Shown: piece after piece, positions 4,119 through 63,908 of the stretch | Layout: each line of letters starts with the position of its first letter | Position numbering within the stretch: position 1 is the first letter of the stretch | Assembly (NCBI GenBank): GCA_947561715.1 | Contig: OX387199.1 | Coordinates: forward strand, 1,865,001 to 1,929,000 | DNA length: 64,000 bases | From: Ascidia mentula | Taxonomy: Eukaryota; Chordata; Ascidiacea; Phlebobranchia; Ascidiidae | Direction: 5' to 3' | Program-made: the position numbers and the translations under genes | Notes under the pieces: model-generated | Database searches by the model: none | What the model saw: only the letters and a program-made list of their open reading frames with translations | What the model was told of the DNA's origin: nothing

Positions 4119-4548
4119 GCAGAGCCCTGTCACGTTCAATCAAGTGCCAAACCACTTTCCGCTCAACAGATTTTGTAAAAAAATCTCTCTATTTATCAAG
4201 AATTCGGTGCTAATTAGCGTAAGAGTAATTAAAATCGGTAGAGATCCCAGATAAAGCAAACAGCGTGAAAAGCCCGGTGTTTGTAGTCATTCTGATGAAA
4301 TACTTCGGACTTTAAAAAAATTCAACATTGTAATTTGTGAGTGCGGAACGCTTTTATCGATAAAACATTTTTTTTATTCTGCCAGAATGACGATTTAAAT
4401 TCAAACCACGGTAGTGCAACCGGTATTGTTGTTTTAATTTAACTTTTCCTAAACAGAATAAAGTTATGTGTGATGAACGATTCCAGAACATCCAAGTGTG
4501 TCGCGAGCCTAAGAAGTTTGGAAACCACTGGTCTAACATACAACTTAC

Positions 4549-4710
4549 TGGTTTCTTAAGTTGTGATATGGAATTTGCAATCTTACAGATTCCACCACTT
4601 GTCATCTCACAATTCCCCAGAGACAGATCCTCAATCCACTGAATACATGAAGCAATAGCAGATGCACTTTCATCATCAACTGTGTTGTAATCAAGTTTCA
4701 ACGACGTCAT
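4549..4710 (-). CDS. Hypervariable LRR exon, copy 1 (162 nt)
   Basis: Acceptor TTTGTTTCAG, donor GTAAGT, 54 aa, phase 0-0. Variable blocks LKLDYNT (4-10) and LGNCE (31-35), D at 28. The first block is nearly that of copy 9 and the second nearly that of copy 10. It is the last exon seen before the left edge; no stop-bearing terminal exon is recognised, so the gene's 3' end is outside the window. Confidence 0.8.
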
Positions 4711-7700
4711 CTGAAACAAATGAGAAATTGCTGGAATCAGTTTTTACGTCAACAATATCATTATTATCAATTATTACGTCACAGAGACAGAACAATTACT
4801 TGGTGAATTTAATCGTTCAGCTCCGGTAGCTCAGTCAGTTAGAGCAGGGTTTTCCAAACTTTTTTGGCCGCGGCCCCCATTTTGTGAACATGGTTTTTCT
4901 CGGACCCCTAATCTTAAGTCAGATCATTTTTCCCACGTAATTAGTGGAAAATAATTGTCTCCTATACGTATTGTAAAGCTTACGAAACCACTCAAGTTAT
5001 AAATTACTGCAGCGAATGCTGCTTACGCACTGTATGAAACGTACCAGTTGTGTTTTAGAAATATCTTTACTTGTGTAACAGTGTTGTGTTACCGAAAACT
5101 AAAACGCATGTTTTGCGGCGGTGCGTGCCCCATCGTTTCATTAGCTTTTACCAGTCGAATCCAGTAAATCGCAAACAAATATAACTGCTGGTACAACATT
5201 AAAAAACATCGACCTATCGGGTCTCATGAGCGCAGCTATGGGTTAACTAGCCAGACATACACTATTCCATTTTGTGTGCACTACTGTCTGTAACTCACTT
5301 ATCATTATTGCCTCATTGCTTGTACATATTATTTTACAAAAAGCAGGGTTTTACAATTGCTTGTTTGTATAATTGCGTTATCTTACTGAAAGATTAAATG
5401 CGTTTTTGCGTTGACACGTGCACCATAGTTTTCTTGCTTCTACTTTGGAAGATAATGCTTAAATATGAAGTCGAGTGGACGTGGAATCTCTGCTTGGACA
5501 CCTGAATTCCATTCAAATGAGTATCGAGCTCACAATGGAACGTGAATACGTCGGGGTGACATCATTTTTTGATGTTCCATTTAAAGAGAGAACCGGGGGC
5601 TAAAGGTGACGAAGGATGCTTGTACATATATTTTTTAAGAAATGCCAGGTTTACGAAATGCTACATTTTTGCAAGGCCTCCCTAGTGTTTGAACGCCCGC
5701 CTGTCAGACCGCGTGCTTTGGTTTCGCCTTCCAAAGATCGTAAAGGAGATGCGTTCGATACTGGAGGTGTAACCGCATACCCTGTGCTGACTGCGACGCC
5801 GTATGCATTGACGAGACTGGCAGCGCCTGACGAACAACGCAATAGGAACACAAACGCGACGTGCCCAACCGCGGGTACAGCGTTGTCGCAACTTACAGCA
5901 GATACAGGTGAATTTTGGAGAAACGACAGTTATGGGTTAAAAAATGACAAGTTTAAACGGATGTTTATAGAATAAATGCATATGAATTCACGCTGAATGT
6001 TAGAACGCAGACATTTTTTCCAGCAGTGTATCGACACCTGGTAAACTCCCAAAGCATCGCTGATTTAAATAATTGAGTTAAATTACGTCATTGTTTCCAT
6101 TCTGGTTTGTTTTAAATGGCATCGTTGAAAGTTATAGGCTTGACTCTAATTGTCCAGTGTGCTTGTGGAGATGTGTGGTTGTTCGCATTTTCGGCTTGCT
6201 TACACCTTTCGTCTTTCTTCTTCCCACACCCCTTGGCGTTTTTTCGAGCTTTCTTATATTTACGGTGTTGTTTGCACTCACGCACTTTATCCTAACAAAG
6301 ATTGATTGCATGACGACAGAAACGTCGATCAAATAAATTTTTACGCACGAGCTTCAAAAATTGATTAAATAATACTTGAATATGATTGGGACCAAAAATT
6401 ATTTGACTGAATACGAAGTTGTGTATGGAAAAAAGAATGCAAAGTTTTTTTTACGAGGTTTCCAGCTGATAGATTTTGCTCGGGTGCCTGGGCCCCTTGT
6501 ACCCCCTCCCTACGACTATGCGTGTTGGTATCATGAGATGCAATATGGAAGGTGTCACTGGAGATGCATTGTTTGAAGTTTGGGTAAAAGTAAAACATTC
6601 ATCTAAACTAGGGTTGTGCAACCTGTGGCTCGTGGATTGAAATTCTGCTGCCCGCTATAATTCAAAAAAATATTTTGAACTAGTCCTACTACGTAGAAAT
6701 GTTCCAGGACACGTCATCAAGCAATCAGTCATGCATGAAGGTTAATATTAGGGCCAAGCGTTGAGCATAGACGCGTGTAATACTCATTTCGCAAGGATAA
6801 TTAAATTTTCTGCTATAAAGGCAAGTCTCATTTCACGTTAGAACCATTCTATTATTTTGTGCTATTTGAAAATACAACATTGGCGATGAGGAGACCTTTG
6901 AATTACTCCTAACTGCTCAACGGAAGAAAACTACAGGGAATTTTTTTGAACTTGTATACATAAGCAGATGGACGGACAGGAGTGACGTCACCAGGAGTTT
7001 ATAATGGAACGTGAATATGTCGGGGTGATGTCACTTTTTGATGTTTCTATTTAAAGCGAGAACCGGGGGCCTCTCCGCACAAACGTATACTGGTAACTGA
7101 CTCATTCCGACAGGTATCTGTCGTTTCGGTTCGCGAACCCCAACGCGCACAAGCGTGTTGTAGTGCGTGCACTGTATACAAGAGCGGAAACCTTAGTTTC
7201 AGAGGAAGAGGCTCAAAAACAGGAGGTTGGTTATGTGCAGAGTGCGATTTTAGTGAATGGCCACACTGGTTCGTTTCTGTGGCGAAACCAAGATTTCTCG
7301 CCTAAAGGTGACGAAGGGTGTGGTTGTGTTGTTATATATTTTGCAAGGCCTCCAGGTGTTTGAACGCCCGCCTGTTATACAGCGTGCTTTGTAAACTCCC
7401 AAGCACTGGCGTGGAGTACGAGACTTCGGCTTTCGTCGGTTTGAACCGTGGCAAAAATGAAGGCGCATTTCACTGCTGTTTAAACGTTCTTAACACGCAG
7501 TTTCGTTTGCCTCGTATTGGCGATCTACAATAACGCAACAAGCCAAACGTTTGTGACGCACACGTGGAAGGAAGAATTTATCGTTTGTGTAGAGAAAATT
7601 GACTACGGAGTTCGCCTCGAAAACATTTGTTTAAAACCACGTTTTGTTTTGTCCAGTTTTTCGGTCGAAGATTACATATACCAATCGCCATGAAAATTGT

Positions 7701-10700
7701 CAACATCGAAGACCCTATAAACTGAATAATATGGCGTTCAAACAACCTTGTAAGGTTAGCATTAATACTCGCCGCACCCCGGTGATGTGCAAAACTTTAC
7801 GCCTCTGCTCCCAAGGCATCGTAGATTTTTATTAATTTATCTAGTTAAATTACTCTATTGTTTACATTCTTGTTTGTTGTAAATTACGTCGCTGAAAGTC
7901 TTGCAGTTTCTGCGATACACCAAATTTGTAAGTTTCGTGCACGAGCACTTAAAAGAGAAAAAATCTGGAACGTCATAGGCTTGACTCGAATTGCCCAGTG
8001 TGCTTGTGGAGATGTGTGGTTGTACATTGATTCGCATTTTCGGCTTGCTTACAACTTTCGTCTTTTTACTTCACGCCTTCCCTTTTTGTGTTTTTCGAGC
8101 TTTCTTATATTTACCGTGTTGTTTACACTCACGCACTTTGTCCTGAAGAAGTTCGATTGCATGACGACAGAAACGTCCATCAAACAAATTTTTTCCCGTG
8201 AGTTTCAAAATTAATTAAATACGCTTTAAAAAATTTGGAACAAATTTTTTTTTAACTCAATACGCATTTGTGCAGAAAAAAAAAGATATATTTTCATATA
8301 AGGTTGCCAGCTAATAGATATTGCTTGAGAGCGTGGGCCTCTTTCACCCCCTCCCTCTGAATACGACTATGCGTGTTGGTATCATTTGTTACAACATGGA
8401 AGGTGATGTTGCGCTCACTTTACCGCATTAAAACGAAGCGGATTAAATTCCTTTTTTCGCCGCGTTTCTCTTTTGCTGGTGTTGCGTGGACTCGTGGAGT
8501 CATTCTTAAACTTTGGCAATGCAATCAAGCAGCACAGCGCTGTAGTGTCATCCCGAATTACACATGGCGCCAACTTACTAACACGTTTGTGATTTTGGTC
8601 ATATTTATATGCTTGCATTTCCACGAAAGCCAATAAAACTATTACAAGGAATAAACAAACATATTTTTGCATTCGACGTTTTAAGTTGTTTTATTAATGG
8701 GTAGTGCACAAATATGTGCAAGGAATATTCGTATTCATATGCAGAGCTTTTTTATTACTGTTACTTGTGAGCAAACATTACAAACCACCAATGTCTGCGT
8801 CAGCGCTATTTTTGAAATAAAACACCGTTTGTGTAACTGTGTTACGTTATAGCGAAACCTGACGCGCATGTTTTTGCGGCGGTGCGTGAGTCATAGTTTT
8901 ATTTGCTTTTACTTTGAAGTAAGGTCTGGGAAATATTGAAACCAAATACAGATAGGAATAAAAACGCATATTGGTCGTCAATGAAAATTCCAACAAAACA
9001 TTGTATTTGATATAAATTTGCCCGATGCCACCCCGAGTAAATTGTAAGTCAGACAATAAGTGTTGCTTGTTAGTCCGGACCTACTGGATCCCAGTCACCT
9101 AAACCTAGATACTCCCACATATGCTAGTATTAGAAAATTACTACACAAGGTGTCAATAAAAGCAAATACACTGTTAGTAACATTTAAAATTGAATTGATA
9201 GTTAACTTGTGTCACGTGAAAGAAGTGCTGCTGGTTAGGTAGATTTCATTAAGTAAAAACATTTTATTGCTACACTGTTAGGGTTAGAAAAACATATATT
9301 TAAATACTATCATCATTCTGGCAGAATCAAAAAAAATTTATCGCCATAAGCGTTCCGCGTTAATGATTACAATTTCACATGACCGTTTAACACGAACATT
9401 CAAACTTCTTCCGGGTTTACAGTACAACAGCTTACATTTTATATCTCAATAAAAACTTTGTTCAAAAACGTTATGTCACACAAATATAACGATGTTGAAA
9501 TCCGAAGTATTAAATCAGAATGACTTTAATATAACGATCCTTTGGGGGTGACGTCACTTTCAATCAAGTGCCAGACCACTTTCCGCTCAACAGATTTTGT
9601 AAAAAAATCTCTCTATTTGTCAAGAATTTGGTGCTAATTAGCGTAAGAATGATGAAAATCGGTAGAGATTCCAGATAAAGCAAACAGCGTGAAATGCCCG
9701 GTGTTTGAAGTCATTCTGATAAAATACTTCGAAAAAAATTCAACATTGTAATTTGTCAGAAATTACTGCTATTAAAGTTTCCATCAAAATGATGTAACCT
9801 GTTGTAATATAAACCCAAAAGAAGTTTGAATGTTTGTGTAAAAAGTTATCGTGAAATGGTAATCATTGGTGCAGAACGCTTTTAACGATAAAACATTTTT
9901 TTTATTCTGCCAGAATGACGATTTAAATTCAAACCATTGAATTGAGCTTTTCCTAAACAGAATAAAATTAGGTGTGGTGAACGAATCCAGAACATCCAAG
10001 TGTGTCGTGACCCTAAAAAGTTTGGAAACCACTGGTCTAATATACAACTTACTGGTTTCTTAAGTTGTGATATGGAATTTGCAATCTTACAGATTCCACC
10101 ACTTGTCATCTTACAACCCCGCAGAGACAGATCCTCAATCCACTGAATACATGAAGCAATAGCAGATGCACTTTCATCATCAACTTTGTTCCCATCAAGT
10201 TTCAACGACGTCATCTGAAACAAATCAAAAATTACTGGAATCAGTTTTTATGTCAACAATACATCATTGTATCAATTATAACGTCACAGAGGCAGAACAA
10301 TCACTTGGTGAAATTAATCGTTCAGCTCTGGTAGCTCAGTCAGTTACAGCAGGGTTTCCCAAACTTTTTTGGCCGCGGACCCCATTTTGCGAACATGGTT
10401 TTTCTCGGAACCCTTATCTTACGTCAGATCATTTTTTCAATATAATTAGTGGAAAATAATTGTCCACTACACGTATTGTAAAGCTTACGAAATCACTCAA
10501 GTTATAAATTACTGCAGTGAATGCTGCTTAGGCACTGTATGAAACGTACCAGTCGTGTTTTTGAAAATATCTTTACGGACCCCCGTGCAGTCATTGCGGA
10601 CCCCAATTTCGGAACCCCCGAGTTACAGAAAGAACCCGAAATATTTGTGGAGATGTGTGGTTGTACGTTGATGCGCATTTTCAGCTTGCTTACACCTTTC

Positions 10701-13700: not shown

Positions 13701-16700
13701 AAACTTCCGACATTCACAATAATGCTGACGCTTTCAGTCGTCTTCCAGCTGGAAAGTATCTCACATTTAATGAGGAGGAAACCGCCGTTTATACGGACAC
13801 GGTCTGGGAGATTACTACGTTGAGTCAAGTGACGCCCGCAGACGTGACAGCTAATATGAAAGAAACGGCCAAAGACCGGATTCTGTCCAAGGTCATGAGG
13901 TATACTTAAGAAGGTTGGCAAAATTAACATTTCGACAAGGGAAGTTCGCTCAGTCGTTGCAGTCAGATTACAGATTCCTAAGCATCAGTCATGGTCGGTT
14001 ACTGTACAGCTGCAGAGTTGTGATACCTGCAAAACTTCAACCTGAAGTTCTCAAGTTGTTGCATCAAAGTCACTTGGGAATGCAAAAGATGAAGCAACTG
14101 GCTAGAACAGCTGTATACTGGTCAAATATTGACAAAGACATCATGGATACGTGTCGCAAATGCCACAACTGTGCCGAGCATCAAAATGCTTCACCGAAAG
14201 CTTCATTGTATCCTTGGGTTTACCTGAAAAACCTCGGTGTCGACCACATGAGGGCAATGCCAATGACTTTATGGGTCACAATGGACGCGTAATGGGAATG
14301 GTTATTCGAAAAGACAACTTCTCAACAATCGGAAAATGTGTACAAAGATTGACGCGCTTATACCTTCAACCCCTCATATTGCTCAGGGAAAATTGTCGAG
14401 AAAAACTTCAGTTGCGAACTCGACAAAACATCGCAGTGCACCGACTGCATATAAAGTAGGGATGCCATGCTACGCATAGCACTACGAATCCAGAACATCC
14501 AAGTGTGTCGTGACCCTAAAACGTTTGGAAACCACTGATCTAACATACAACTTACTGGTTTCTTAAGTTGTGATATTGAATTTGCAATCTTACAGATTCC
14601 ACCACTTGTCATCCAACAAAACCCCAGAGACAGATTCTCAATCCACTGAATACATGAAGCAATAGCAGATGCACTTTCATCATCAACTGTGTTCCCACGA
14701 AGATTCAACGACTTCATCTGAAATTATTTCATATACAAATTAGTTACAAGCATACAACTATTGATTTTTCCCATGAATATTTTACCGTAACTTCAAATAT
14801 ATCCAGGTTTCACATGAATACTTTTGTTAGTAAAATTAATAAAGTTGTCTTAATTTCCTGTCCCCCAACTGTTCTTCGTGAAAAACCAATTACCTGATTC
14901 AACTACAAACTGGGGGATATGCCAAAACGAACACGAACCCGAATAGATTCTGCAAATGTCAGCTTGATTTTAATATTCATGTGAAGCTGAATAATAAGTG
15001 ATATTCCAGAGCAAATATTTATTAGGGCGTATAATGATAGTTTTGTGATATAGCGTATTATGAAATTTATATAATGCTATAACCGTATTATAATTATGGT
15101 GATTGCAACAAATTTCTGTAATCAGTCGCAGCCTGAGCAACATACTTGCACGCATCATACAGGCCAAGCTACTGGTAACGTCACACTTCACAGACGTATA
15201 TATTGTCATCACTCAATGACAAGTTTCCACCGGTGTACCGACACTTGCTAGGAAATTATGCCGTTAAACATCGCGCACTCCAAAAACGATGATAACCCGT
15301 GTGGTTACTGATAATTGTACAGTGCAGGTGTGTCATTCGCCCTTTCTTATCGTTTTTTCACTTCTTTTTCTTTTGTAGCGTTTTTTCTTTGTTTCTGTGC
15401 CTCAACTTTGTCCACATTGCTTAACTTACATTTCCTACCTTCTGATGAAGGCTGCTGCATAACAGCCAAAACGTTAAGAAACGACGATTGGTGAATAATA
15501 AACGTGATACATAAAAAAGCACCGATAAAACCACAAGAATTATCATGTCAAACGTCCATTCATGACCACTAAACTGGAGTCTTTGTCAATTTGGGACATC
15601 CCCACCATACACAACTGCAATGTGACAGGAAAAATCTCATGTGTGACTTCAAGATATTTATCGGTCACCACATTTCCAATATATAACAATTTAATAAGGT
15701 TAACCCCTATTGAAAAATGCTTAGTTTTGACCAATTCAGCAAATATACCTTCTGTTTTATTGCTTCAGCCACTTCTCGTATCCCATCCCCACTAACTACG
15801 TCCATAGTAAGTTCAAGTGTGGGAGGAAATAAATGTAAAACACACGACAAAGCAAAAGCTTCTTCATCACCTCTCACTGTAAGCTTGTTTGGAATGGAAT
15901 TAATCTGAGAATAACATGTCGGTTTACACAAAGTTGTTTAACCACTAAATATGGATATTTCGAAAAAAATTGTTTTTTTGTCAACACAAATACTGGGTAA
16001 AGTGTCATATGTTAATTTGACTTAAACATATGTAAACAAAGTAACCTAAGAAAAATCCTGACTTACAGACAAGTTTATTATAACAATGCTTACAAACCTC
16101 AAACACCGAATCAACAAATTTGGTTGTTATGTCCTCTTTCTTTACTGAAGTCTGAAAAAACAAATTAATCGTCGTCATTCAGTACATATTGACAAATAAC
16201 AGCAGGGCTGACACAGAATGTTATGTAAAACAGAAAAACTATCAAGCTTTTGAAAAATGTTTTATGTAGTTCTTTGTAAATGCATCTACAATAGTAATAT
16301 TCACTCATTTACTAAAAGTGTTTTTAATTTTTTCTTGGCAAAATATTAAATGCTGGTAACCTTTGAAATGCAAGAAATAAGATCACATTTTCCAATCACA
16401 TGGATGCCCTCCTCTGATATTTGAAACTTAGATGTGTAAAGTTTGTTAACATTTTTGTGGACAGCTTCATCCATGATCAATGGTAATAGAGATTTTGAAA
16501 TCAGATTTTCACTGATGTCCAAAGATTCCATCTGTAATGATTGGAATATGTGGTTTTACACAAAAAACATTTAAAAGCCAAACAATACTCTTGCTATTTT
16601 TAAAAAGGGCGATAAAAAACTTTTAGGAATGCTTTTCAAAACTTAATTGCAGCAACCAGTCATTTTCATGCAAAAAATATTCACCCAAATTTCAGTTTAG

Positions 16701-39939: not shown

Positions 39940-40204
39940 AGTAAGGTACAACAACAACAACCTACTCCTACAAAATGCAATTTGGTAAATGTTTTGATTA
40001 TTCTTCTGTGTGCATCCTGAAACATGTTTTGCCGTAGTTTAATTGAAAAAGGTTATGGGTTTTGCAATTAAACTTTCTACATCATTTAGCCTCCACGTAT
40101 TTGTACGTTACTCATTTCTAATAATGCCATTTTTTTCCATTTTATTTCTTCGTACGTTGTTCTTACGCGTAGTTGTTTTTTTCGCAAAATAAACATGATT
40201 TGAT

Positions 40205-41680: not shown

Positions 41681-42459
41681 ACAAAAATCCACAACGTAAT
41701 GTCAATAAAGTCTGCGGGAGAATTATTTCTTACATTTAATCAATACCGCCTCCAGTGACAGAAGTGCATCTAATAAGCTTAAGGTTCTTAGCAACCGTTG
41801 CCAACTAATAATTTTCTAGTTTTTTAAGCAGTGTATTTTTACTCAACAGGTTTCTTACAAACAATTTCACAAAAACAACAAAATAATTTTTTTCAATGGC
41901 AGTTTTGCATTCGTGGCAACCAGATTCGGCCGCTAAGCTGGGTGATCAGACCTGGGATTGGGCCGCGTTCAACCAACTACAATTCATTTACTTAGTGCAA
42001 AATTACATTACATTGTAACCGTTCACCTTCAAAAGTTGCTGCTGTTCCGGCTACAGATAAGATACGCTTATATAACATCGACGTGAGAATATATTTATGT
42101 TAGCTTAGTGCTGGATTAACTATTTTTGCAAACTAGGCTACATAAATAGCTTTATGACGGAAAGTTAGCGATTAAATTAAATTTATCTTTTATTTTTGAT
42201 TGAATATTTCAGGCGTTTCACTTCACCATTATACAAAGTACTTTATATTATTTATCAGTTGTGTTTGTAAATATGAAAGGTAAAGACTATAACCTGTACA
42301 AGCTGACACCGAGATACTCACCGTTGGTGTTCGTTACATTGCATCCGGTGACTCTAAAAACGTGCAGTTATCAGTATAAGTGGAAAGCAGACGTTTGAAC
42401 TCGGGATCTTCGACGTTGATCAGACTTCCGAGTGCATACCATCTCTGCAGAGAGGCAAC
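41681..42459. other. Non-coding stretch
   Basis: No feature recognised. Confidence 0.4.
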
Positions 42460-49700: not shown

Positions 49701-52700
49701 AATGAAGACAAGAACTAATTGATTTTCACAACTAATCTCCATGTAAGAATGTGGTCATTCTACCTCTTGGATTGGGTGGAAATCCTCGACCAAAACCTTC
49801 ATCCATATGTGGTGGTCTGTGACGATCCATCGGATCGCCCATGCCATGATCCACGGGCACACTTTCTATAACTCGCATGTCCACCTCCATTCTTCTTGGA
49901 CCTCTGAATTGTAAAATGTTTATTAGTTTTAAACATCATAGCATGTTTTTTCCAACATCAGAAAATTTTACAGAACCATGATGTTTTAACTGTGGCAAAT
50001 ATTATCTATAAGTATACATTTTCCATTGTCAATTTTATGTTTGCCAGACTTAATACAACCAATAGTTGATCAGTGTCCACGCAACTTCACCAAATTTATT
50101 GTTCATTTATGTCGGATATGAGCAAACTCGGTCCTTGGGTAAAATCACTGTTGGATCTGGCTGCCATTTTTTGTATGCTTTTCAGTTACAGCTTTTAAGC
50201 ATTAATGACTGCAAGTCTGTTAGTTTATAAATTGTTGTGTAAAATCTCTTTGTACACATGTACTCATGTGGTCCAATCCCAAATTTTTTATACTTTTTGG
50301 CCCACAAGCGGAAAAAGTTGCCCACTCCTACATTCTTGTTTATAAAAAATATCAAAAAGATACCATAGTAAAGAAGAATTTCTCAGGTCAAATAATGCCC
50401 TTCTATGTCCAACATAATAGGCCATGGAAAACTCTTTGCAGATGCATAGTATCACTACCAGATTAAACACGTAAATTTCCACCTCTCTCCTGGACCAACT
50501 TCCATTGGGTGTCCCCTACCAGGTGGTGGCTCTCTCATACGTTCACCATCCCGGCCACCTCCGAGCCCAGGCAGTGGACTGCCATTGGGCCTTGCATCCT
50601 ACAATCATTACAATAATTGGATCAATTTATGAAACATATCATATAAATTAGCTGTGGATAGTGATAATGACAAATACATTTCTTCCATTGCTTAAGACAA
50701 AATACATTTCTTAAAAGCAAACAGAAAACTTTGGTGACAAAATTTTGCTTACAGACTCTGATCGAGGACCTTCAGATGCTGGAATGAGAGGTTGAACTGG
50801 ATTTTGTCTGTGCAGCATTTTCTTCATGTAGAAGTGAAGTAGGCAAAAAACAACAACAAATAAACAACAATCAAATATTTTTTTCATTGTGCTTGAGAAT
50901 TGATTCTGGGAATCATTTCCCATTCTGTTGCAATTTGGCCCAGAAGATTTCCACCTTTTTCATGTGTCCTTATCTTATCTTCTCAACGCTTCCACCCGTT
51001 GCATGTGGCAGGTTTTTAGTTGTGTAAAGGGCGTGTTGTGAGGCAGTGGAGAGCCTTTACTTTATTTTATTTGAACCTAATTCTTAATTTGCTTTTATAG
51101 ACACTGATGATGCTTTTAACGAAGCGAAATATATATGTCTAATTAAAGAAGTCTGAAAGATTTTAACCTGAAATGAAAGTTTCCTAGACAGTTTTTTTCA
51201 TTGTTTCAACATTATTATTTTTAATTCAGCAAATATGTTTAGTTGTATTTCCTCTGATTATTTTATTGGAGCTGTGGTTTCGTTACCATGGCAATTTCTG
51301 GATCCACAATCCTCATGACAACTTGAGCTTGCAACAAAGCATATGCCAGTTGTGGGTTTTGAAGCAGCATGTTTCTGGCCTCTACTGGGTTGTTTTGAAT
51401 GCATTGCTACAATAGTTCAAAAATATTTCAAAGTTTTAAGACATATATATCCAAAGATTAATTCTGAATAAAAAAACAAAAAGAAAAATTCTCTTGCCTT
51501 CATTTGTTTCATGAGCTCAAACATTTGTTCAGGGGGGAGGCTTGCAACAGCCTTGCTGATAGCTTCTGGGGCATCTTGAGATGGAGTTGGTTCCCCGTAT
51601 TCCGACTCCACTGGGGGACCCATGGCCCTGAAGTGGTTTACTTCTTCCTGTGAACAAAACACAATGATTGGACATCATAAATATTGTGTTGATATTGCTG
51701 TCAGGCACACTACAATTTAAACAGAACTCCTCTCCTGACATAAATTATCATCCTTCATTTTCCTGACGTTTCGTCTGCCATGCATAAATACATACCTATG
51801 GTGGTGACCTAGCTAATGCTTTGGTTCTCAAACTTTTACTCGAACAATGCATGAGGAATGATTCACTGCACTTACACAGTAATTATAAATCTACAAGGAC
51901 TATTTATTCTTTAAGTTTGCAAGTTTTATTTGCATAAGACTGACATCACTGGTTATTTGCCCTCATTTTCTCCAAAACTATTTTTCGCTGAAATTTATTT
52001 TCAATCCACATGTAAATTCAAAATGACAAGACCCAATGCATAATATAGCTAAATATCTGGATGAAAATGTTCCAAAGGCAAAACAAGATTAGGTTAAATT
52101 GCATCAGACATCGAATTAATGTTGCAGTATATATATATAATTGCAAAGAGTACAGTGTACATCAACACTCAGTGTGATTAACAGCAATTACCCATACCTG
52201 AAAGTTATTGCGGTTCTTTTCACTTGTTGCATGATCAACTCTCAGTGGTCGGCCGTGTAACTCCCTTCCATTAAGATTTCTCATCGCACTCATGGCAGTC
52301 TCTTGATCTTGATACTCAGCAAATCCATATCCTTTTGGTTTGCCAGACTCACGATCAAATACAAGGCTGCATTGATATAAACATAACAATATAAAGTCAT
52401 GAGTCTGATTATACTCTTGCAAATGCCTGCATACACAACATACAAAAAAGCACATACCGAAAACTAATGACGTTGCCAACTTCATTGAAAATATCTTTCA
52501 GCTCCTCTTCTGTTGACTCATAAGGTATATTTCCAACTGAAAACAATTTTATGTCAACCGTTACTGTAAAAAAACCGACATTACTAACAGAGGAAAAATG
52601 CATGAATATAAGATATATGTAATATACACGGAGTCCACAATACTTACCAAATACGGATCGGACAGATCTTTCGTAGTCGACTGGATCACGGTCTCTTAAG

Positions 52701-55700
52701 CCGAACATTATCGTTTTCTGCCATTCGAGTCTTCTAAAGTACAAAATAAACAACGTAAACGCACACTTTCCTGCTGATCGCGACTATTGGTTTGGTGGAA
52801 ACTGGCAATTTCTCATACGAAGTACTAGTCAGTAGTTAATAACAAATACATGGTAGTCCAATATTAGGTGCGCGTTTCTTTAAGCTAAAATTTTATTATA
52901 AAGTCCTAATTTCACCCAATCTAATAAAACGAAGCACCTGCATTTGCATACACACGCCGCAGCAACAGCGTTATTTCGGCGAAATGGAAATTGGTTAAAA
53001 GCGAAATTATTTCACGCATGAGTGAACACGACGATTGTGTTCATACAAATTATAAATTAACTCGTAACAAAATTAATCAACAAAATCTCCAATATTTATA
53101 AAACAATATCTATACTTATGTAATTGCATTCTTAAAACACCTATAAAGTATATCGCAACGAAATGGGTTTGACCGCGGTCACGCTGTGTGAATCCCAGCA
53201 TTGTTCGTCAAGGAAGATACTTTTACACCGAGTCACAAATTTTTTTCCAAACTTGATCCACATATAAGTCTACGTAACACAGAAATCTGTGCGAATATTA
53301 AAGCTACGATTTTGTGTAGTATTTCAACTCAAATTTATGAACAAAAATAACAGGCGGTGGCCCTGCTCACGCCTAATCATTAAAATTTGCAGAGATTTCT
53401 GTTTTACACATACTTATGTGTAGATCAGGTTTGGAAACAACTTCGTGACCCGGTGTAGTAGTATTTTCCGTTCGTCAAAGCGTACACTGCGAGCATTTGC
53501 GGCTCTGCATAGAAGTACCAATTTAATAATGTTCCGGGCCATAGATTTTTTTAAAAATTGGCGTAGATTAGGCTTAGAGCATTTAGATCACATTACCATT
53601 GCGTTTTTAAAGACCTATAAAGTATATCGCAACGAAATGGGTCTGACCGGGCAGCACTGTAACTAGTTACTATAATTTCTATTACTGATATTAACTCTCT
53701 AACAAGGGTAAGCTTCATTTATACCTCTACCAATTACTAATTCTAAACCAATAATTGAATTGAAAACCCATATTCCTATTCACGCTCATATTTTGAAAAC
53801 CAGTGCAGGCCAAAAATACACAACCATCCGTTTTCTTAGTGAAGGCTTACATTCTTGTACCTTTGATAGACTTCAAAGTTTACGTATAAAAAACATTGGT
53901 TATGAAACGCAACCTTTCTAACTGCGTCACACACGATGTTGGTAAAACTACTTCTTTACCGTGGACTTCAGAGGAATATCAATTTTATGTTTGGACTTAC
54001 TGGTGACTTCTTTCTGCCACCATAAAAGTAGTTCTCTTCAAATTTCTTCCGTCGATCGAAGAAGATTCCGAAGGCGGCGGAAAGCACGAGGGTAACTCAA
54101 AATTTCACTACAAGTGTTAAGTTTCACACCCACCTTTAATTTTTTCAACACACCTTGCGACTACAACTATAAAGAAGTTTTTAATCTATTACCGCTTTCA
54201 CGCTACAAAGTATACAACACAACACACTCAACCAAAGGCAGTATTTGTAGCCAACTCCAATTGTTCCTAGTTTTATTCCCGAAAAGTACCGGAGACACTG
54301 AAACATTTCACCCCCTATTCTTGGTGATATTGTTGTAATAAATAACCTCAGGAAGTGACAATGTTTCATGCAAAGGCATGATTGGCAGGTTTGTTTTAGT
54401 CACAGTCGATAAAAGCGACATTTACCGGCAAATATTTTTCCACAAACTTACACTAGATGTCGTGCTAATCAATACATCGGGTAAAAATAATGTTGGGTGA
54501 CGTCAGTCAAGCTTATCAAGCAGAAAGCCAGGATACCCGGGTTACGAATATCGCTGTGGTAAAAAGAAAAATGTATTGGGTGACATCGGGCAAATCAACA
54601 CTTAAACATTGAAAAACAAACCTAATGAACGTCGGTCGTATCACGGTGCTAGCTTGCACAATGTAACCCACATTTCAATACAACTTAACAGATGTCTTTT
54701 CAAATATTACTTCCCAACCGTAAGCACTTTGTATTGAAAAAAACAAGAAGTACAACATACGTCGGGGATTCCCCATAAGTAATTGACAGCTCCGGTTAAG
54801 CGCTGGGTGGCGACATCGAGCAGCAATGATTCACAATAGCGATTGCACAAAAACCAACATTCAATGTTCAAATATTTACAACATAAACCTTCCACTTCCA
54901 ACCGCTATAACTTCATCAAACCCATAGATAGATACAGATTTGTTTGAAGTAAATATAAAAAAAACGTGCGCCCATAAAACCGAACCGTAGTTGGTGGAAG
55001 ATCGGTTGTTCTCGTCATCAGACATTTTAGTTACGAACATAAAAAAATCTTCGTTCAAAAACCAACAAAGGGTTGCAAGAATTCACGACATAATGTATCA
55101 GAAAACAATGTAATGTGGAAATACTCGATTGTAATCAGTCTAAAATTAATATAAGTCGCACGTAAATGTTGAAAGTAATGTTTAGTGCGGAAGTAAAAGT
55201 ATTGTCACAAAATCTGTCGTTCAAAATTGTTAGGAAGGCGGATAACTTTGTACGATAAACCTCTGTTGACGGATTTACACAAGAGAGAAGTAAAGACGAA
55301 ACTCAGAGCAGGAGACAAAAATATTCGTGTTTCAAAGACGTCCTTGATTGTAAGCAACACAAACAGTAAAACTTGGCGACAATTTCAAGGAAACCAGATA
55401 CATAGAGACGCATTTATAAGTTTGGCAAAGAAGTAAAAATGAGAGTTATGGAGACAAACGGTATTGATACGTACATTGTAAATACAAATAACACACAGAA
55501 GTTGGATAAAGCACAGAAAAATGTGAAGAATATTTACAAGGTTTCATAATATTTATGTGGTATTTTGTGAAGTTCGATCATCAAAAGTTTCGTTTCCAAC
55601 TTTACTGACATGAAACGATAATCGTTACTTCCACACTAACCTCGATACAGAGTTGCGGGAAATTATCAACGGTTACAGTTCAAGTAACTGCGTTGGAAAG

Positions 55701-58700: not shown

Positions 58701-61700
58701 AAACTGAAACGCATCTTCAAACAGAGACCTTGTCACGCTTTTTGCATTGGAGGTGACGTCACTTTCAATCAAGTGCCAAACCACTTTCCGCTCAACAGAT
58801 TTAAAATAAAATTTCTTTTTTTAAGAATTTGGTGCTGATTAGCGCAAGAGTAATTAAAATCGGTAGATATTTCAGAAAAAGCAAACAGCGTGAAAAGGCC
58901 GGTGTTTGAAGTTCTGATGAAATACTTCGGACTTTGAATTCAACATTGTAATTTGTGAGAAAATACTGCTAACAAATTTTCCATTAATACGATGTAACCT
59001 GTTGTAATACCAACCCAGACGAAGTTCGAATGATCGTGTTACAAGTTATCGTGAAATGGTAATCATTGGTGCGGAACGCTTTGGACTGTTTTTTGATTCT
59101 GCCAAAATGACGATTGAAATTCAAACCAAGGTAGTGCAACCAGTACTTTTGTCTTACTTCGACTTTTGTTTTTTTAAACAGAATAAAGTTATGTGTGGCG
59201 AACGATTCCAGATTATTCAAGTGTGTGTGACCGTAAGAAGTTTGGAAACCACTGGTCTAACATACAACTTACTGGTTTCTTAAGTTGTGATATGGAATTT
59301 GCAATCTTACAGATTCCACCACTTGTCATCTCACAACCCCACAGAGACAGATTCTCAATCCACTGAATACATGAAGCAATAGCAGATGCACTTTCATCAT
59401 CAACTGTGTTGTTACCAAGATTCAACGACGTCATCTGAAACAAATCAAAAATTACTGGAATCAGATTTTATGTCAACAATATCATTGTATTAATTATGAC
59501 GTCACAGAGGCAGAACAATCACTTGAATTTAATCGTTGAGCTCTGGTAGCTCAGTCAGTTACAGAAAGAACCCGCATTACACATGGTTGCAACTTAGTAA
59601 CACGTTTGTGACTTTGGTCGCAGTTATATGCCCTGCAGTGCCACGTGACCCAATAAATTCATATGGCTTATTACAAGAAATAAACAAACTTATTGAAGAT
59701 TTTCAATTGGCCCTTCTGGGGTTTATGAAGGGGACTGTACAAATATTGGGTAGGAATTTTCCTATTTTACGATTTTGTGAAGCCTTAATCGTTTGCCTTC
59801 ACTATTTTTTCAATAAAAGACGGTTTGTGCAACTGTGTTACGTCAACGAAAACTGAAACGCATATTTTGCGGTGGTGCGTGCGCCATACTTTTAATTGCT
59901 TACACTACCAACAAAGTTTTATCAATATTATGTAACCTGTTATAATATAAACCCAGAAGAAATTTAAATGTTCGTGCAAAAAGGTCATGTGAAATGGTAA
60001 ACATTAGTGCGGAACGCTTTTGCCGACAAAACACTATTACATTCGACCAAAATGATGACAGATTTCGAACCAACGTAGTGTAACCAGTATTTTTGTTTTA
60101 ATAAAACTTCTTCTCAAACATAATAAAGTTAGGTTTGGCGAACGATTCCAAATCATCCAAGTGTGTCATAACCTTAAAGACAGTGATTCCCAACCTTTTT
60201 GTGATTGCGTACAACTTCGGAGGTAAAACAATTTCGACGCGTACCACCCAGTTGAGTGTTACAAAGTAACCTAGGGGATGAAGTAACGAACATTTCGGGA
60301 TCCTTTATGATTTTTCAAATTCGAAATATATCCGTAAATTACGGAAAGGTGCTCGCGTATCACCTGGAATGCCGTCGCGTACCACCGGTTGGGAAACACT
60401 GCCCTACGAAGTTTGGAAACCACTGGTCTAACATACAACTTACTGGTTTCTTAAGTTGTGATATGGAATTTGCAATCTTACAGATTCCACCACTTGTCAT
60501 CTTACAACCATCCAGAGACAGATCCTCAATCCACTGAATACATGAAGCAATAGCAGATGCACTTTCATCATCAACTTTGTTGTAATCAAGTTTCAACGAC
60601 GTCATCTGAAACAAATGAGAAATTGCTGGAATCAGATTTTATGTCAACAATATCATTGTTATCAATTATGACATCACAGAGGCAGAACAATCACTTGGTG
60701 AATTTAATCGTTGAGCTCCGGTAGCTCAGTCAGTTAGAGAAAGAACCCGATTTACACATGGCTCCAACTTAGTAACATGTTTGTAACATTGGTAGGTGTG
60801 ACATGCTTGCAATGCCACGAGACCCCAAAAAATCAAATGGCTTTTTACAAGAAATAAACAAACTTATTGAAGATTTTGAATTTGCTCTTCTGGGGTTTAA
60901 TGAAGGGGAGTGTACAAACATTGTGTAGGATTTTTCAATTTTGTTAAACCTTAATCGTTTGCCTTCACTATTTTTAATAAAAGACGTTTTGTGCAACGGT
61001 GTTACGTCAACGAAAACTGAAACGCATATTTTATGGTGGTGCGTGCGGCATAGTTTTGATTGCTTACACTACTAACAAAGTTTTTATCAATATTTTGTAC
61101 TACAAATCCAGAAGAAGTTTGAATGTTCGGGCAAAAAGGTCATGTCAAATAGTAATCATTAGTGCGGAACGCTTTTGTCGACAAAACACTTTTAGATTCG
61201 ACCAAAATTATGACAGATTTCAAACCAAAGTAGTGTAACCAGTATTTTTGTTTTAATATCACTTTATCTTAAACATAATAAAATTAGGTTTGGCGAACGA
61301 TTCCAAATCATCCAAGAGTGTCATGACCCTAAGACAGTGAATCCCAACCTTTTTGTGGTTGCGTACAACTTGGAGGTAAAACAATTTCGACGCGTACCAC
61401 CTAGTTGAGTGTTACAAAGTAACCTAGGGGATGAAGTAACAAACATTTTGGGATCACGGTTTTTTCAATTCGAAATATATCCGCTAATTACGAAAAGGTG
61501 CTCGCGTACCACCTGGAATGTCGTCGCGTACCACCGGTTGGGAAACACTGCCCTAAGAAGTTTGGAAACCACTGGTCTAACATACAACTTACTGGTTTCT
61601 TAAGTTGTGATATGGAATTTGCAATCTTACAGATTCTACCACTTGTCATCTTACAATTCCCCAGAGACAGATTCTCAATCCACTGAATACATGAAGCAAT

Positions 61701-63908
61701 AGCAGATGCACTTTCATCATCAACTTTGTTCCAATCAAGATCCAACGACGTCATCTGAAACAAATGAAAAATTGCTGGAATCAGTTTTTATGTCCACAAT
61801 ACATCATTGTATCAATTATGACGTCACAGAGGCAGAACAATCAGTTGGTGAATTAAATCGTTTAGCTCCGGTAGCTCAGTCAGTTAGAGAAAGAACCCGA
61901 ATTACACATGGCTCCAACTTAGTAACACGTTTGTGACCTAGGTGGCAGTTATATGCCTACAATGCCACGAGACCCAATGAATGGCATTGCAAGGAATAAA
62001 CCAACTTATTTTTGAATTCGCCCTTTCAGGTTTTTTAATTAAGGGGAGTTTTCAAATATCTTTACGGAATTTTCTTCCAATGTTGTGATTTTGTATTACT
62101 GTTACTTGTGATCCAGCTTTACAAACTACCAATGCCTGCATCTGCGCTATTTTTTCAATATAACACGGTATGTGTAACTGCGTTACGTTACCGAAACTGA
62201 AACGCATGTTTGCGTTGGTGCGTGCGCCATAGTTTTAATAGCTTTTCCCAATCGAATCTGGTAAATCGCAAACAAGCTTTTTTATGTGGTCAGCCAATTA
62301 GGCGTATTATTAAATCACTGTTACTTGTGATCCAGCTTTACAAACCACCAATGTCTGCGTCGGCGCAACTTTGGCAACAAAAGACGGATTGTGTAACATG
62401 TTACTGAAAACTAAAACGCACGTTTTAATAAAAGGCCTATGCTCAATCAAATTCAGTGGTCACTGTTTTGCAATAGCATGTTGCAATACTTTTTGTCTGG
62501 TTTTCTTTTTGTAACTTATCCACAAAAAATACTTACCTTATGTTTTATAGCACCTACAACTTCTTGGATTGCAGAGTTACTGACATTTCTAATGGTAAGT
62601 TCCAGTGTTGGATAAAATAAATGTATGACGCATGACAAAGCAAATGCTTCGTGATCACCATTCACTGTTAGCTGGTTGGGGATGGAATCAAACTGAAAAC
62701 AATTTAAGAAGACTGATTTTATCATGTGCAAACACTAATGTATTTAACGATTCTATTGTAAGTTTCATAACAGGAAGAAACATTTGAACAAAGAACACCC
62801 AATGAATTGAAAAAAGTTTTTTAAAATCATAAGAATTACAAGTTTTCAAACCTCAAATGCTGATTCCATGTACTTCTCGACCAACATCTTGGGATCCACT
62901 GAACTCTAAAAAAACACAAACATGGATTTTATAAGTATATGAATCAAGTTAAACTTTGGGCAAATGAAAAAGATTGAAATATTGTCAAAGTTTTAGTCCT
63001 TTAGGTTGCAGCACTTTACCAGAGGCAAATCTCCAAACAGATCAAACTTTCCACAAGATTTAATTCCATTTTTTGATACTCTGAACTTTGTTACAATCAG
63101 CTTGTTAACATGTGATGTTGCTTGATTCGAAAGCAATTGCAGAAGTGAATATGAAACCGCATTTCCACTGATATCCAGAGTCTCCATCTATCAGATTAAT
63201 GCTATTGTAGTTTTGTGAAAATTATTTCTATATACCATGTACTATGTAACAAGGGGGGCTCATGTTTTTAATTCTCTTTACAGAATTTTTTTTTTCTCTT
63301 TTCTGCAGTTGGATGACACACCTACAGACTCCAAAATGTAAGTGTGTCAAACCACAAACTAACGGAAAAAGTAAATGTTCACCAAAATACAAAACATTTA
63401 GCTTACTTGATGTTGAGATCTTAATAAAGCAGCAACAATTTTACACAAGCTGGGGCCAGCAATACTACAACCAGACAGATACAGGATTTTGATCAAATGA
63501 ACAATTGATGCTATTGCAGATGCAGCTTCATCATCAGTTTTGTTGTTGTTAAGGGTGAGTGATGTAAGCTAATACACAAAATAACAATCATTTTGGTTTA
63601 AAATGTTTGCTATCACACAGAACATAAATATGTTTCCTATGGTTTTGTTTTCTTTAATATATCAGCTTTATGTCATGTATAAGTTTCAGAAGAGCTTTCG
63701 AAGGGCCTGAGTATCAGTTTCAATGTCAAGAAAATCAGAAACCTACTTGATGTTGAGATTCCAACAAAGCATCAGCAATTTTACACATGCTGGGACCAAC
63801 AATTTGATAATGAGACAGAGACAGGTTTTCAATAAAGTGAACACTTGATGCTATTGCAGATGCAGCTTCATCATCCAATTTAATACCGTTTAGGGTGAGT
63901 GAAGTAAT
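46463..63908 (-). CDS. LRR exon array B of a second NLR-like gene (5' end beyond the window)
   Basis: Span of eleven minus-strand LRR or linker exons listed separately. The order from the right edge is 162, 162, 168, 54, 156, 162x3, 153, then CSTF2, then 162, 153. The cassette order matches array A. No NACHT or N-terminal exon lies inside the window, so the 5' part must be beyond 64 kb. The two exons beyond CSTF2 (47595 and 46463) may not belong to the same transcript: they lie in a duplicated block, and reaching them would require splicing across a same-strand housekeeping gene. Confidence 0.5.
46701..47594. repeat. Intron sequence of repeat-unit composition
   Basis: Matches 5217-5600 and 56830-57270. 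A C/G-rich CCGGATCC/GGCCGGATAA patch lies at 47140-47525 with inverted CCGG-rich ends (about 47125 and 47525), possibly a small MITE. No gene. Confidence 0.4.
47595..47756 (-). CDS. Hypervariable LRR exon, copy 7 (162 nt)
   Basis: Acceptor TTTGTTTCAG, donor GTAAGT, 54 aa, phase 0-0. Variable blocks LYLDRNT (4-10) and LGSCK (31-35); H at 24, E at 52. It is open and has intact splice sites although it lies downstream of CSTF2, so it may be a stranded duplicate or part of a third gene. Confidence 0.7.
47757..48560. repeat. Upstream flank of hypervariable copy 7
   Basis: Matches the standard unit at 26360-26530 and 25011-25500. It ends in unique DNA before the CSTF2 stop exon. Confidence 0.5.
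48815..48931 (-). CDS. CSTF2: CSTF2 exon 10 (C-terminal domain and stop)
   Basis: Acceptor GTATTTCCAG; 38 residues ending QLQGGRP and TGA at 48817-48815. This is the conserved three-helix C-terminal domain that binds PC4/PCF11-type partners in the family. Confidence 0.93.
   Translation of the reverse strand, partial: AALIMQVLQLTPEQIRMLPDEQRRSILALKDQLQGGRP
48815..52708 (-). CDS. CSTF2: Cleavage stimulation factor subunit 2 (CstF-64), ten coding exons
   Basis: Nuclear RNA-binding subunit of the CstF complex, which binds GU-rich elements downstream of poly(A) sites during mRNA 3'-end formation. Exons (minus strand): 52708-52648, 52536-52458, 52366-52198, 51647-51498, 51406-51287, 50821-50753, 50598-50483, 49903-49764, 49456-49191, 48931-48815. 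Lengths sum to 1287 nt (428 aa plus stop) and all phases join. Domains: RRM near residues 20-95 with [14 protein letters not shown] (RNP2) and KGYGFAEYQ (RNP1); hinge [40 protein letters not shown]; a Pro/Gly/Arg-rich region with MDR/RG repeats; and the C-terminal helical domain [20 protein letters not shown]. The start ATG gives [20 protein letters not shown], matching the family N-terminus. It is shorter than the human protein because the MEARG-type repeats are few. Intron 4 has a GC donor. Confidence 0.95.
49191..50821 (-). CDS. CSTF2: CSTF2 exons 6-9 (Pro/Gly/Arg-rich region)
   Basis: Exon 6 (69 nt, [20 protein letters not shown]), exon 7 (116 nt), exon 8 (140 nt) and exon 9 (266 nt, [20 protein letters not shown] then repeated MDRGG/MDRPG). 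This is a disordered low-complexity region, as in CstF-64 orthologues. The frame is set by phase continuity from exons 7 and 8; a longer overlapping frame in exon 9 is a shadow. Confidence 0.85.
51104..51129 (+). other. Hammerhead-like core in a CSTF2 intron
   Basis: CTGATGA - GCTT/AAGC stem - GAAA, followed by TATATATG. It lies in intron 5 of CSTF2, antisense to the gene. No long arms are seen here. Confidence 0.4.
51287..51647 (-). CDS. CSTF2: CSTF2 exons 4-5 (hinge, CSTF3/symplekin contact region)
   Basis: Exon 4 (150 nt) starts [20 protein letters not shown] and ends MKQMK; its donor is GCAAGAG, a GC-AG intron. Exon 5 (120 nt) starts [20 protein letters not shown] and ends VDPEIAM at GTAACG. 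In the family, the hinge binds CstF-77 and symplekin in a mutually exclusive way. Confidence 0.92.
52198..52708 (-). CDS. CSTF2: CSTF2 exons 1-3 (RRM)
   Basis: Exon 1 (61 nt) ends in phase 1 at GTAAGT; exon 2 (79 nt, acceptor GTTTTCAG) ends in phase 2 at GTATGT; exon 3 (169 nt, acceptor TATCAATGCAG) ends in phase 0. Together they encode 103 residues carrying the whole RRM, including both RNP motifs and the C-terminal [12 protein letters not shown]. Upstream of the ATG a second, out-of-frame ATG (52731, MAENDNV...) opens a 12-codon reading frame overlapping the start, a possible uORF if the transcript begins above it. Confidence 0.92.
52740..53974. other. CSTF2 upstream region
   Basis: Holds the presumed promoter; no TATA box or motif can be singled out. 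A 50-bp direct repeat (CTATAAAGTATATCGCAACG) is at about 53140 and 53617. Confidence 0.4.
53975..56840. repeat. Large segmental duplication, right copy (right of CSTF2)
   Basis: See 42460-46700. It includes the LRR-like exon 56587-56739 and the frame 55227-55436 ([20 protein letters not shown]), about 95% like its partner by eye, longer in this copy and unrecognised. Confidence 0.75.
56587..56739 (-). CDS. LRR-like exon of the GDAAETLL class, 153 nt, copy 2
   Basis: Acceptor TATTTCCAG, donor GTAAAT, 51 aa, phase 0-0. It starts [20 protein letters not shown] (LxxLDLSYN is a clean LRR strand) and ends [11 protein letters not shown]. The mid-section [12 protein letters not shown] is shared with the copy at 46463. 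The weaker donor (GTAAAT) is noted. Confidence 0.65.
56841..59272. repeat. Intron sequence of repeat-unit composition
   Basis: Contains the GACAGGTATCTGTCCTCTCG block, a GTCGATTGCATGACGGCAAA tail (58150), the empty site of the solo LTR (58401-58412), and the standard hypervariable-exon flank. Frames here are shadows. Confidence 0.5.
59273..59434 (-). CDS. Hypervariable LRR exon, copy 8 (162 nt)
   Basis: Acceptor TTTGTTTCAG, donor GTAAGT, 54 aa, phase 0-0. Variable blocks LNLGNNT (4-10) and LWGCE (31-35). Its flank has the empty version of the hAT-type insertion site seen in copies 9 and 10. Confidence 0.8.
60181..60401 (+). mobile_element. hAT-type MITE beside copy 9
   Basis: Ends CAGTGATTCCCAACC and GGTTGGGAAACACTG. 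Flanks CTTAAAGA and CCCTACGA are degenerate versions of the 8-bp duplication seen at the next copy. Confidence 0.75.
60444..60605 (-). CDS. Hypervariable LRR exon, copy 9 (162 nt)
   Basis: Acceptor TTTGTTTCAG, donor GTAAGT, 54 aa, phase 0-0. Variable blocks LKLDYNK (4-10) and LDGCK (31-35), D at 28. The first block matches copy 1 except position 10; the second is identical to copy 6. It carries the same hAT-type insertion as copy 10 at the matching site. Confidence 0.8.
61335..61550 (+). mobile_element. hAT-type MITE beside copy 10
   Basis: 216 bp. Ends CAGTGAATCCCAACC and GGTTGGGAAACACTG, with identical 8-bp flanks CCCTAAGA at 61327-61334 and 61551-61558. Confidence 0.8.
61593..61754 (-). 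CDS. Hypervariable LRR exon, copy 10 (162 nt)
   Basis: Acceptor TTTGTTTCAG, donor GTAAGT, 54 aa, phase 0-0. Variable blocks LDLDWNK (4-10) and LGNCK (31-35); R at 40 instead of G. First of three tandem copies spaced about 1.15 kb. A 216-bp hAT-type insertion lies just beyond the donor. Confidence 0.8.
61755..62536. repeat. Flank of copy 10 and intron
   Basis: Standard unit flank to about 62400 (a 60-bp piece, TTACTTGTGATCCAGCTTTA, occurs twice, at about 62100 and 62322). Then a bridge to the 156-nt exon that resembles 29090-29650. Confidence 0.5.
62537..62692 (-). CDS. LRR exon of the SIPNQLTV class, 156 nt
   Basis: Acceptor AATTGTTTTCAG, donor GTAAGT, 52 aa, phase 0-0. It starts [20 protein letters not shown] and ends EVVGAIKHK. 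Confidence 0.75.
62852..62905 (-). CDS. Linker exon, 54 nt
   Basis: [18 protein letters not shown], acceptor GTTTTTTTAG, donor GTTTGA, phase 0-0. Its last ten residues match the 42-nt linker of array A ([11 protein letters not shown]). Confidence 0.65.
63020..63187 (-). CDS. LRR exon of the METLDISGN class, 168 nt
   Basis: Acceptor TCTGATAG, donor GTAAAG, 56 aa, phase 0-0. It starts [20 protein letters not shown] and ends [10 protein letters not shown]. Close relative of 27788-27952 in array A, which ties the two arrays together. Confidence 0.75.
63407..63568 (-). CDS. LRR exon of the 162-nt class, diverged copy
   Basis: Acceptor TTGTGTATTAG, donor GTAAGC, 54 aa, phase 0-0. It starts [20 protein letters not shown] and ends [10 protein letters not shown]. 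Closest to 63747-63908, a local duplicate. Confidence 0.75.
63747..63908 (-). CDS. LRR exon of the 162-nt class, diverged copy
   Basis: Acceptor AATATGAAATATTCAG-type (CATATTCAG), donor GTAGGT, 54 aa, phase 0-0. It starts [20 protein letters not shown] and ends [11 protein letters not shown]. Same architecture as the hypervariable copies but older. Confidence 0.75.

Follow-up and report, generated by a model that had tools for sequence, protein, structure and literature searches.

In lampreys, the LRR cassettes of the VLR system are unspliced donors for somatic assembly and form a large stock differing at concave residues, and in plants the exposed LRR residues of NB-LRR proteins are under diversifying selection. 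We know of no plant NB-LRR genes in which near-identical, separately spliced LRR exons are common to several genes. In Podospora anserina, the NWD genes, het-d and het-e among them, encode NACHT proteins with near-identical WD repeats across many genes, and the accessible text of PMC1805685 describes concerted evolution of these repeats both inside single loci and across loci, demonstrated by comparison with the NACHT tree, together with diversifying selection on four surface residues per repeat and pseudogene loci with intact repeats. Fungal NLRs show an internal repeat identity above 85% and selected sites that lie mostly on the predicted concave interaction face, and the accessible part of that survey lists WD, ANK and TPR repeats and "no LRR motifs" (PMC4986451). 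In the zebrafish NLR-B30.2 genes, a large family, exon shuffling, domain-specific gene conversion and positive selection in the recognition module have been described (PMC4852459, accessible text). Ascidian NLRs with a NACHT-LRR architecture are already known (PMC11508797); the accessible text of that paper mentions neither exon arrays nor hypervariable LRRs nor between-gene exchange, and exon arrays are likewise not mentioned in that of PMC9505182. In the open-licence literature, covered mostly by title or abstract start, no description was found in tunicates of exons of the type reported below.

The window analysed here is the whole stretch of 64,000 nucleotides at C52:1865001-1929000, in a genome of 195.8 Mb. 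When COX1 was translated under mitochondrial code tables 2, 4, 5 and 13, with its motifs judged by eye, a good reading was obtained with AGA as glycine (table 13), the tunicate code, and the genome is accordingly assigned to a tunicate. A sequence-only reading of the window had reported ten near-identical LRR exons, and their coordinates and 162-nt length proved to be correct. All ten lie on the minus strand and comprise 54 codons in phase 0 between AG/GT splice sites, with an AG acceptor and a GTAAGTTG donor:

4549-4710, minus strand: variable two-LRR exon, copy 1
10053-10214, minus strand: variable two-LRR exon, copy 2
14556-14717, minus strand: variable two-LRR exon, copy 3, with another upstream intron family and an "MKSL" start
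19372-19533, minus strand: variable two-LRR exon, copy 4, the most divergent, with another upstream intron family
20090-20251, minus strand: variable two-LRR exon, copy 5
26198-26359, minus strand: variable two-LRR exon, copy 6
47595-47756, minus strand: variable two-LRR exon, copy 7, a lone exon near CSTF2, within a repeated segment of about 2 kb
59273-59434, minus strand: variable two-LRR exon, copy 8
60444-60605, minus strand: variable two-LRR exon, copy 9
61593-61754, minus strand: variable two-LRR exon, copy 10

When copy 1 was used as BLASTN query against the window, ten full-length matches and three weak partial ones were obtained, and two of the three weak matches fell at 63.4-63.9 kb, on LRR exons of an older type. 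The residues listed in the earlier reading for codons 5, 7, 8, 10, 32, 33 and 35 (the contact codons) all matched, and codons 11-27 were indeed constant except for three synonymous changes in copy 4 and a Q-to-H change in copy 7. Variation affects 18 of the 54 codons in the ten window exons, the eleven beyond the contact codons being 2, 3, 17, 18, 24, 28, 34, 39, 40, 47 and 52, of which codon 52 is also strongly variable. The seven contact codons, i.e. 21 of the 162 sites, carry 387 of the 561 pairwise nucleotide differences (280 of 367 when copy 4 is left out), and the same variation pattern was observed in 99 exons from across the genome.

A CAGTGGTTTCCAAACTTTTTAGGG-like sequence was observed 18 bp past the exon in eight of the ten window copies, on the minus strand; in the opposite orientation there was no match:

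4507-4530, 10011-10034, 14514-14537, 26156-26179, 47553-47576, 59231-59254, 60402-60425 and 61551-61574, minus strand: CAGTGGTTTCCAAACTTTTTAGGG-like sequences

We take this sequence to resemble a hAT-type terminal repeat, and a transposon may thus be linked to the spread of the exon.

The domain content and gene order of the host genes assign them to a predicted tunicate NLR subfamily (NACHT, winged helix, HD2, LRR). In Pfam searches, the NACHT domain PF05729 scored above the cut-off in the gene at locus L051 (E 4.4e-17) and in that at locus L050 (E 7.6e-12), the L051 gene also contained NOD2_WH and NLRC4_HD2 (PF17779 and PF17776, both above cut-off), and LRR_6 was found in the variable exon with 24.2 bits versus a cut-off of 23.4. 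In L051, a linker exon, exons of three further LRR types and then variable exons about 0.9 kb apart come after an open NACHT exon, all on one strand, and the same-strand order of NACHT exon, LRR exon types and variable exons was shared by L051 and by L050 together with the window. When three variable exons joined in gene order were compared with the PDB, the top match was a chain named leucine rich repeat protein, followed by ribonuclease inhibitor, 5irm (presumably NOD2) and NLRP14. The Pfam domains, exon order and PDB matches point to NLR-type genes, and the description of the repeats as NLR-type exons was borne out by the domains and by the exon order on one strand. Order, strand and phase fit joint transcripts of the NACHT and LRR exons, which would probably be spliced together.

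The window exons belong to more than one gene. The NACHT exon of gene A lies just beyond the window at C52:1934513-1935871 (locus L050 5141-6982, minus strand), with copies 10, 9 and 8 downstream, and contains one in-frame TGA, which could make gene A a pseudogene or null allele. Of the NACHT exon of gene B, only the HD2-side part is left in the window, followed by LRRb and LRRc segments and by copies 6 to 1; no other NACHT-exon match was found in the window, and all six variable exons of gene B there are intact despite the absent NACHT part. The segments of the two genes are given below, the LRRa, LRRb, LRRc and linker types having been called by translated similarity alone:

63747-63908, minus strand: older-type two-LRR exon of gene A, 44% identical to copy 10
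63407-63568, minus strand: older-type two-LRR exon of gene A, 41% identical to copy 10
63023-63157, minus strand: LRRb-type exon segment of gene A
62537-62689, minus strand: LRRc-type exon segment of gene A
31552-32082, minus strand: HD2-side fragment of the NACHT exon of gene B
31310-31480, minus strand: linker exon segment of gene B
30369-30500, minus strand: LRRb-type segment of gene B
29653-29802, minus strand: LRRc-type segment of gene B
27788-27922, minus strand: LRRb-type segment of gene B
26905-27060, minus strand: LRRc-type segment of gene B
18160-18258, minus strand: LRRb-type segment of gene B
17511-17666, minus strand: LRRc-type segment of gene B
16379-16477, minus strand: LRRb-type segment of gene B
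15749-15904, minus strand: LRRc-type segment of gene B

Between copies 7 and 8, a CSTF2 (CstF-64) gene was recognised at about 52165-52783 on the minus strand from two joined RRM pieces that matched cleavage stimulation factor subunit 2 chains in the PDB (E 1e-39), and a proline-rich frame at 49137-49469 resembles what we take to be a possible later exon of it. A single Dscam-like gene holding all ten exons was rejected, as CSTF2 separates copies 7 and 8 and the second NACHT-exon fragment, at 31.6-32.1 kb, separates copies 6 and 7. Copy 7 is an isolated exon downstream of CSTF2; the segment of about 2 kb around it (47138-49142) has further copies at C52:1.688 and 1.802 Mb, which are 95-96% identical to it. 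The three sites of this segment (the window, L027 and L037) are about 110 kb apart, L027 and L037 being 97% identical over 3 kb, and a further match lies at C52:2.67 Mb (96% over 511 bp), the loci involved including L073. Elsewhere in the window, a Copia-type reverse transcriptase frame was observed at 34155-34760 on the plus strand (RVT_2, E 2.7e-16), some 2 kb away from what remains of gene B's NACHT exon, and a 212-aa open frame at 39403-40038 on the minus strand had no Pfam match. An Rfam scan of the window gave no family at the gathering threshold.

The family extends well beyond the window. A search with the L051 NACHT exon gave at least 28 loci at 64% identity or more, after which identity fell to 36% or less (95 of 304 candidates scored); 26 of these 28 loci are on C52, and 26 of the 28 are free of in-frame stops. 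A conserved 32-mer, allowing up to 3 mismatches, had at least 200 matches genome-wide and its reversed control had 0. From 108 extracted copies, 100 showed AG, GT and an open frame, copies truncated at the locus end being skipped in this check, and as one was of the older type 99 were analysed. Outside the window, L051 and neighbours within 3-kb loci, copies were chosen by exact match to codons 11-21, so that those codons are uninformative outside the window and L051; they were excluded from the scaffold figures of the 64-exon set, of the intron-family comparison and of the main comparison of eight window copies given below. A typed consensus exon used as genome-wide query returned mostly copies that had already been extracted (40 of 212 candidates scored).

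Other members or relatives of the family were also observed. At C71:14.2-15.3 Mb dozens of NACHT matches share one strand, and many of them have an open frame of 480 aa; they form a separate large NLR expansion. At C70:952-984 kb (L092-L102 and L114) at least 14 variable exons form an array, with splice sites checked in 11 and the other 3 in L114; no NACHT of the same subfamily was found in the 10 kb upstream of this array (L114), which may be an orphan or serve as a donor. Three segments that lie some 0.5-0.7 kb past NACHT exons, at L026 1867-2028, L012 2327-2488 and L034 2313-2474, resemble the variable exon only from about codon 9, and a variable exon at C52:1838466 ends like the L026 segment; these three segments and the C52:1838466 exon are apparent mosaics, as judged from their sequence.

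The contact codons probably map to the concave surface, as suggested by the LRR register and by the alignment to ribonuclease inhibitor. In copy 8, codon 32 aligns with a tryptophan of that inhibitor which, we assume, is the one that contacts RNase A. An AlphaFold model of one exon, built on an alignment of 12 window exons, showed helices at 13-31 and 39-49 and no strands; it was weak (mean pLDDT 61.6, pTM 0.39) and was not used for codon placement. The concave faces of LRR proteins are frequent ligand sites (PMC3138743, accessible text).

Since recombination breaks the tree, pN and pS were obtained as Nei-Gojobori-style counts. In the 64 exons with an alignable upstream intron, contact pN was 0.383 (bootstrap CI 0.355-0.412) and contact pS 0.130 (CI 0.100-0.159), the upstream intron showed a p of 0.113 (CI 0.099-0.128), and scaffold pS and pN were 0.053 (CI 0.034-0.071) and 0.026, respectively. 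In the eight window copies with an alignable intron, contact pN was 0.407, intron divergence 0.090, scaffold pS 0.000 and scaffold pN 0.004. Amino-acid divergence at the contact codons is therefore in excess of intron divergence, 0.38 versus 0.11 in the 64 exons and 0.41 versus 0.09 in the window copies, the opposite of introns diverging as much as or more than the contact codons, and the ratio of 3.4 in the 64 exons (95% CI 2.9-4.0) upholds the diversifying selection that the sequence-only reading had proposed. Its choice of seven codons fared less evenly: when 142 intron windows were used for comparison, codons 8, 32, 33 and 35 were singly above all of them and codon 7 above all but 9, but codons 5 and 10 were unremarkable, being matched by 44 and 39 windows, and codon 52, above all but 3, had been overlooked. 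Contact combinations were highly diverse, with 94 distinct septets among the 99 exons.

The same reading had offered a targeted diversification process as the alternative to selection. A mutator of this kind, whether DGR-like, deaminase-like or other, would strike the contact codons and leave selection merely to filter the outcome. Contact pN was already 0.30 for the 72 pairs with an intron distance below 0.04, compared with 0.38-0.41 at larger distances (bins that leave out 139 of 2016 pairs), and contact pS was 2.5 times scaffold pS, both of which such a mutator would explain. Silent variation was also higher at two codons: among the 64 exons, pairs sharing a residue used different codons in 16% of cases at codon 8 and 33% at codon 32, and in all 99 exons such silent differences amounted to 0.1, 13, 23, 3, 39, 7 and 2% at codons 5, 7, 8, 10, 32, 33 and 35, with 4% in the scaffold. 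Some mutational excess at codons 8 and 32 is thus possible, and their silent variation may reflect either this or repeated multi-step change. Nevertheless, in the 64 exons the same residue was always encoded by the same codon at codons 5, 7, 10 and 33, while at codon 35 this was true for 99.5% of pairs, only 0.5% differing, which leaves the targeted process unsupported. In the same exons the third positions of codons 7, 10, 33 and 35 were quiet (pi 0.03, 0.00, 0.00 and 0.06; 0.12, 0.06, 0.04 and 0.14 in all 99 exons) beside positions 1-2 averaging 0.18 to 0.60, and quiet third positions next to saturated first and second ones indicate amino-acid selection rather than regional hypermutation. 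Moreover, transition and transversion pair counts were even at positions 1-2 (5600 to 5730; intron, 18986 to 16181), and the decoupling from introns is already accounted for by reshuffling of an existing pool. We consequently regard a targeted mutator as extremely unlikely and diversifying selection on the encoded residues as the better account of the contact codons.

The comparison of whole genes revealed that the variable exon is homogenised relative to the NACHT and LRRc exons. Between the L050 and L051 genes, the NACHT exons had a pS of 0.435, whereas the variable exons had 0.054 with a contact pN of 0.386, and the LRRc segments (three of gene A versus L051) had a pS of 0.52-0.55. When exons were assigned to genes by position and strand only, the means between the 16 groups with at least 2 exons (of 20) were 0.060 for scaffold pS and 0.383 for contact pN, and gene A and the C70 array differed by a scaffold pS of 0.021, these between-gene scaffold figures including codons 11-21; contact pN within groups ranged from 0.17 to 0.58, spanning the between-gene mean. 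The near-silent scaffold is thus due to exon-level homogenisation between genes, which the earlier reading had overlooked.

The exons might instead be very recent duplicates, with amplification and positive selection but no exchange between genes. Array growth by tandem units is indeed visible, in steps of 885-887 bp on C70 and of about 1.15 kb in the window. However, NACHT pS was 0.30-0.45 in nine of ten pairs and 0.14 in the tenth (five NACHT exons, from 5 of the 28 loci), so that the host genes are older than the exons, LRRc divergence between genes reached 0.55 against a pS of about 0.05 for the variable exons, and the upstream introns of different families have a merely chance-like identity. 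Recent duplication without exchange is in our opinion highly improbable, and homogenisation between genes is preferred.

The flanking introns bear directly on how this homogenisation takes place. Six upstream intron families, with at least 4 members each, comprise 91 exons; between families, the mean ungapped intron identity was 21-37% and scaffold pS was 0.04-0.09, the exception being one copy pair from families 3 and 4 at 78% intron identity. In 43 exons taken with 1-kb flanks, 378 of the 901 exon-spanning alignments stopped within less than 20 bp on the upstream side. The upstream intron family was closely tracked by codons 1-4, 7 and 10 (z 4.5-12.6) and less so by codons 5 and 8 (2.4 and 2.6); past codon 10 the association dropped to about background, and it was absent at codons 32, 33 and 35 (0.6, -0.4 and 0.7). 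For the downstream family, compared in 81 exons, z was 0.2, 1.7 and 0.2 at codons 32, 33 and 35, and codons 2-4 were associated again. The linkage between the exon interior and the intron is therefore lost, which indicates that the interior has a history largely separate from that of its flanks and that exchange ends within the exon. In addition, 228 of 276 site pairs violated the four-gamete condition, a result that recurrent mutation can also give. Shuffling is incomplete, given that 5 of the 40 tested codons after codon 10 (28, 34, 41, 46 and 49) were still tied to the upstream intron at nominal p <0.05 and that 7 of 45 variable-codon pairs, 5-33 among them, were associated at about p 0.02 or less. 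Gene conversion would be the simplest agent of this exchange.

It could be argued that the silent sites are frozen by a function at the DNA or RNA level, e.g. splicing signals, with no need for homogenisation. Even among exons of a single intron family, scaffold pS came to roughly half the intron divergence, and the eight window exons had 0 silent scaffold changes where about 9 were expected from the intron, as constraint would produce. On the other hand, the other LRR exon types of the same genes show a silent divergence of 0.10-0.55, and the association of codons with intron families decays along the exon, contrary to what constraint predicts. Strong silent-site constraint could mimic part of the homogenisation; that it replaces homogenisation altogether appears very unlikely.

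Taken together, these results make it probable that conversion-type exchange homogenises the scaffold of these tunicate NLR exons while diversifying selection acts on their contact residues. Each 54-residue exon encodes two ribonuclease-inhibitor-type LRRs, and the 0-0 phase of the exons would allow any number of them to be joined in a single solenoid, changes in array length keeping the frame. The scaffold would be kept near-identical within genes, between genes and between chromosomes by recombination, in all likelihood gene conversion whose tracts end within the exon, together with unequal crossing-over of array units. Diversifying selection would act at the presumed ligand-facing codons, most strongly at 8, 32, 33 and 35, with 52 also high. 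The large copy number would constitute the mutational supply, and conversion would spread and re-assort contact variants and restore the scaffold, rare contact combinations being kept by diversifying selection. The exchange presumably takes place in the germline, and the products may serve in non-self recognition. A bolder proposal is conversion-driven receptor diversification, possibly somatic in blood cells, in which gene-less arrays and truncated NLRs (the C70 array and gene B) would be donors and exchange would be restricted to the exon by using the exon itself as template, through short-tract DNA conversion or conversion from cDNA. We give this little credence; if true, the sister group of vertebrates would possess an NLR-based immune repertoire of an anticipatory kind.

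The likeness to lamprey VLR cassettes drawn by the sequence-only reading holds for the outcome, a large stock of LRR modules, but not for the build, as the exons described here have the splice sites and open frame of ordinary spliced exons (100 of 108 copies). Like plant NB-LRR genes, they show selection on exposed LRR residues, but they differ from these in being near-identical separate exons across genes (PMC4986451, accessible text, for selection only). As in the Podospora NWD genes described in the accessible text of PMC1805685, the repeats are homogenised between loci relative to NACHT, amino-acid divergence is in surplus at few codons (here 8, 32, 33 and 35, by the counting method) and intact repeats persist at broken loci, here gene B; in contrast to those fungal WD40 beta-propeller repeats, the repeats are animal LRR pairs, each in its own intron-flanked exon. 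Highly similar repeats with selected sites are likewise shared with the fungal NLRs of the accessible part of PMC4986451, but here they are LRR repeats in exon cassettes. In the zebrafish NLR-B30.2 genes, selection falls on the B30.2 module and the LRRs are "not particularly variable", according to the accessible text of PMC4852459, whereas here the LRR exons are the variable module. The regime is thus the known one of fungal NLR repeats, but both the host lineage and the type of repeat are new.

The locus provides an animal LRR example of that regime, with a scaffold that is homogenised and contacts that are diversified and reshuffled, and because near-identical exons stand in unrelated introns, recombination and selection can be separated unusually cleanly. 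To judge from the exons, the arrangement looks like a means of keeping a large, shuffled stock of recognition surfaces, and it makes testable how invertebrates that lack lymphocyte receptors maintain recognition breadth, in the germline or in the soma.
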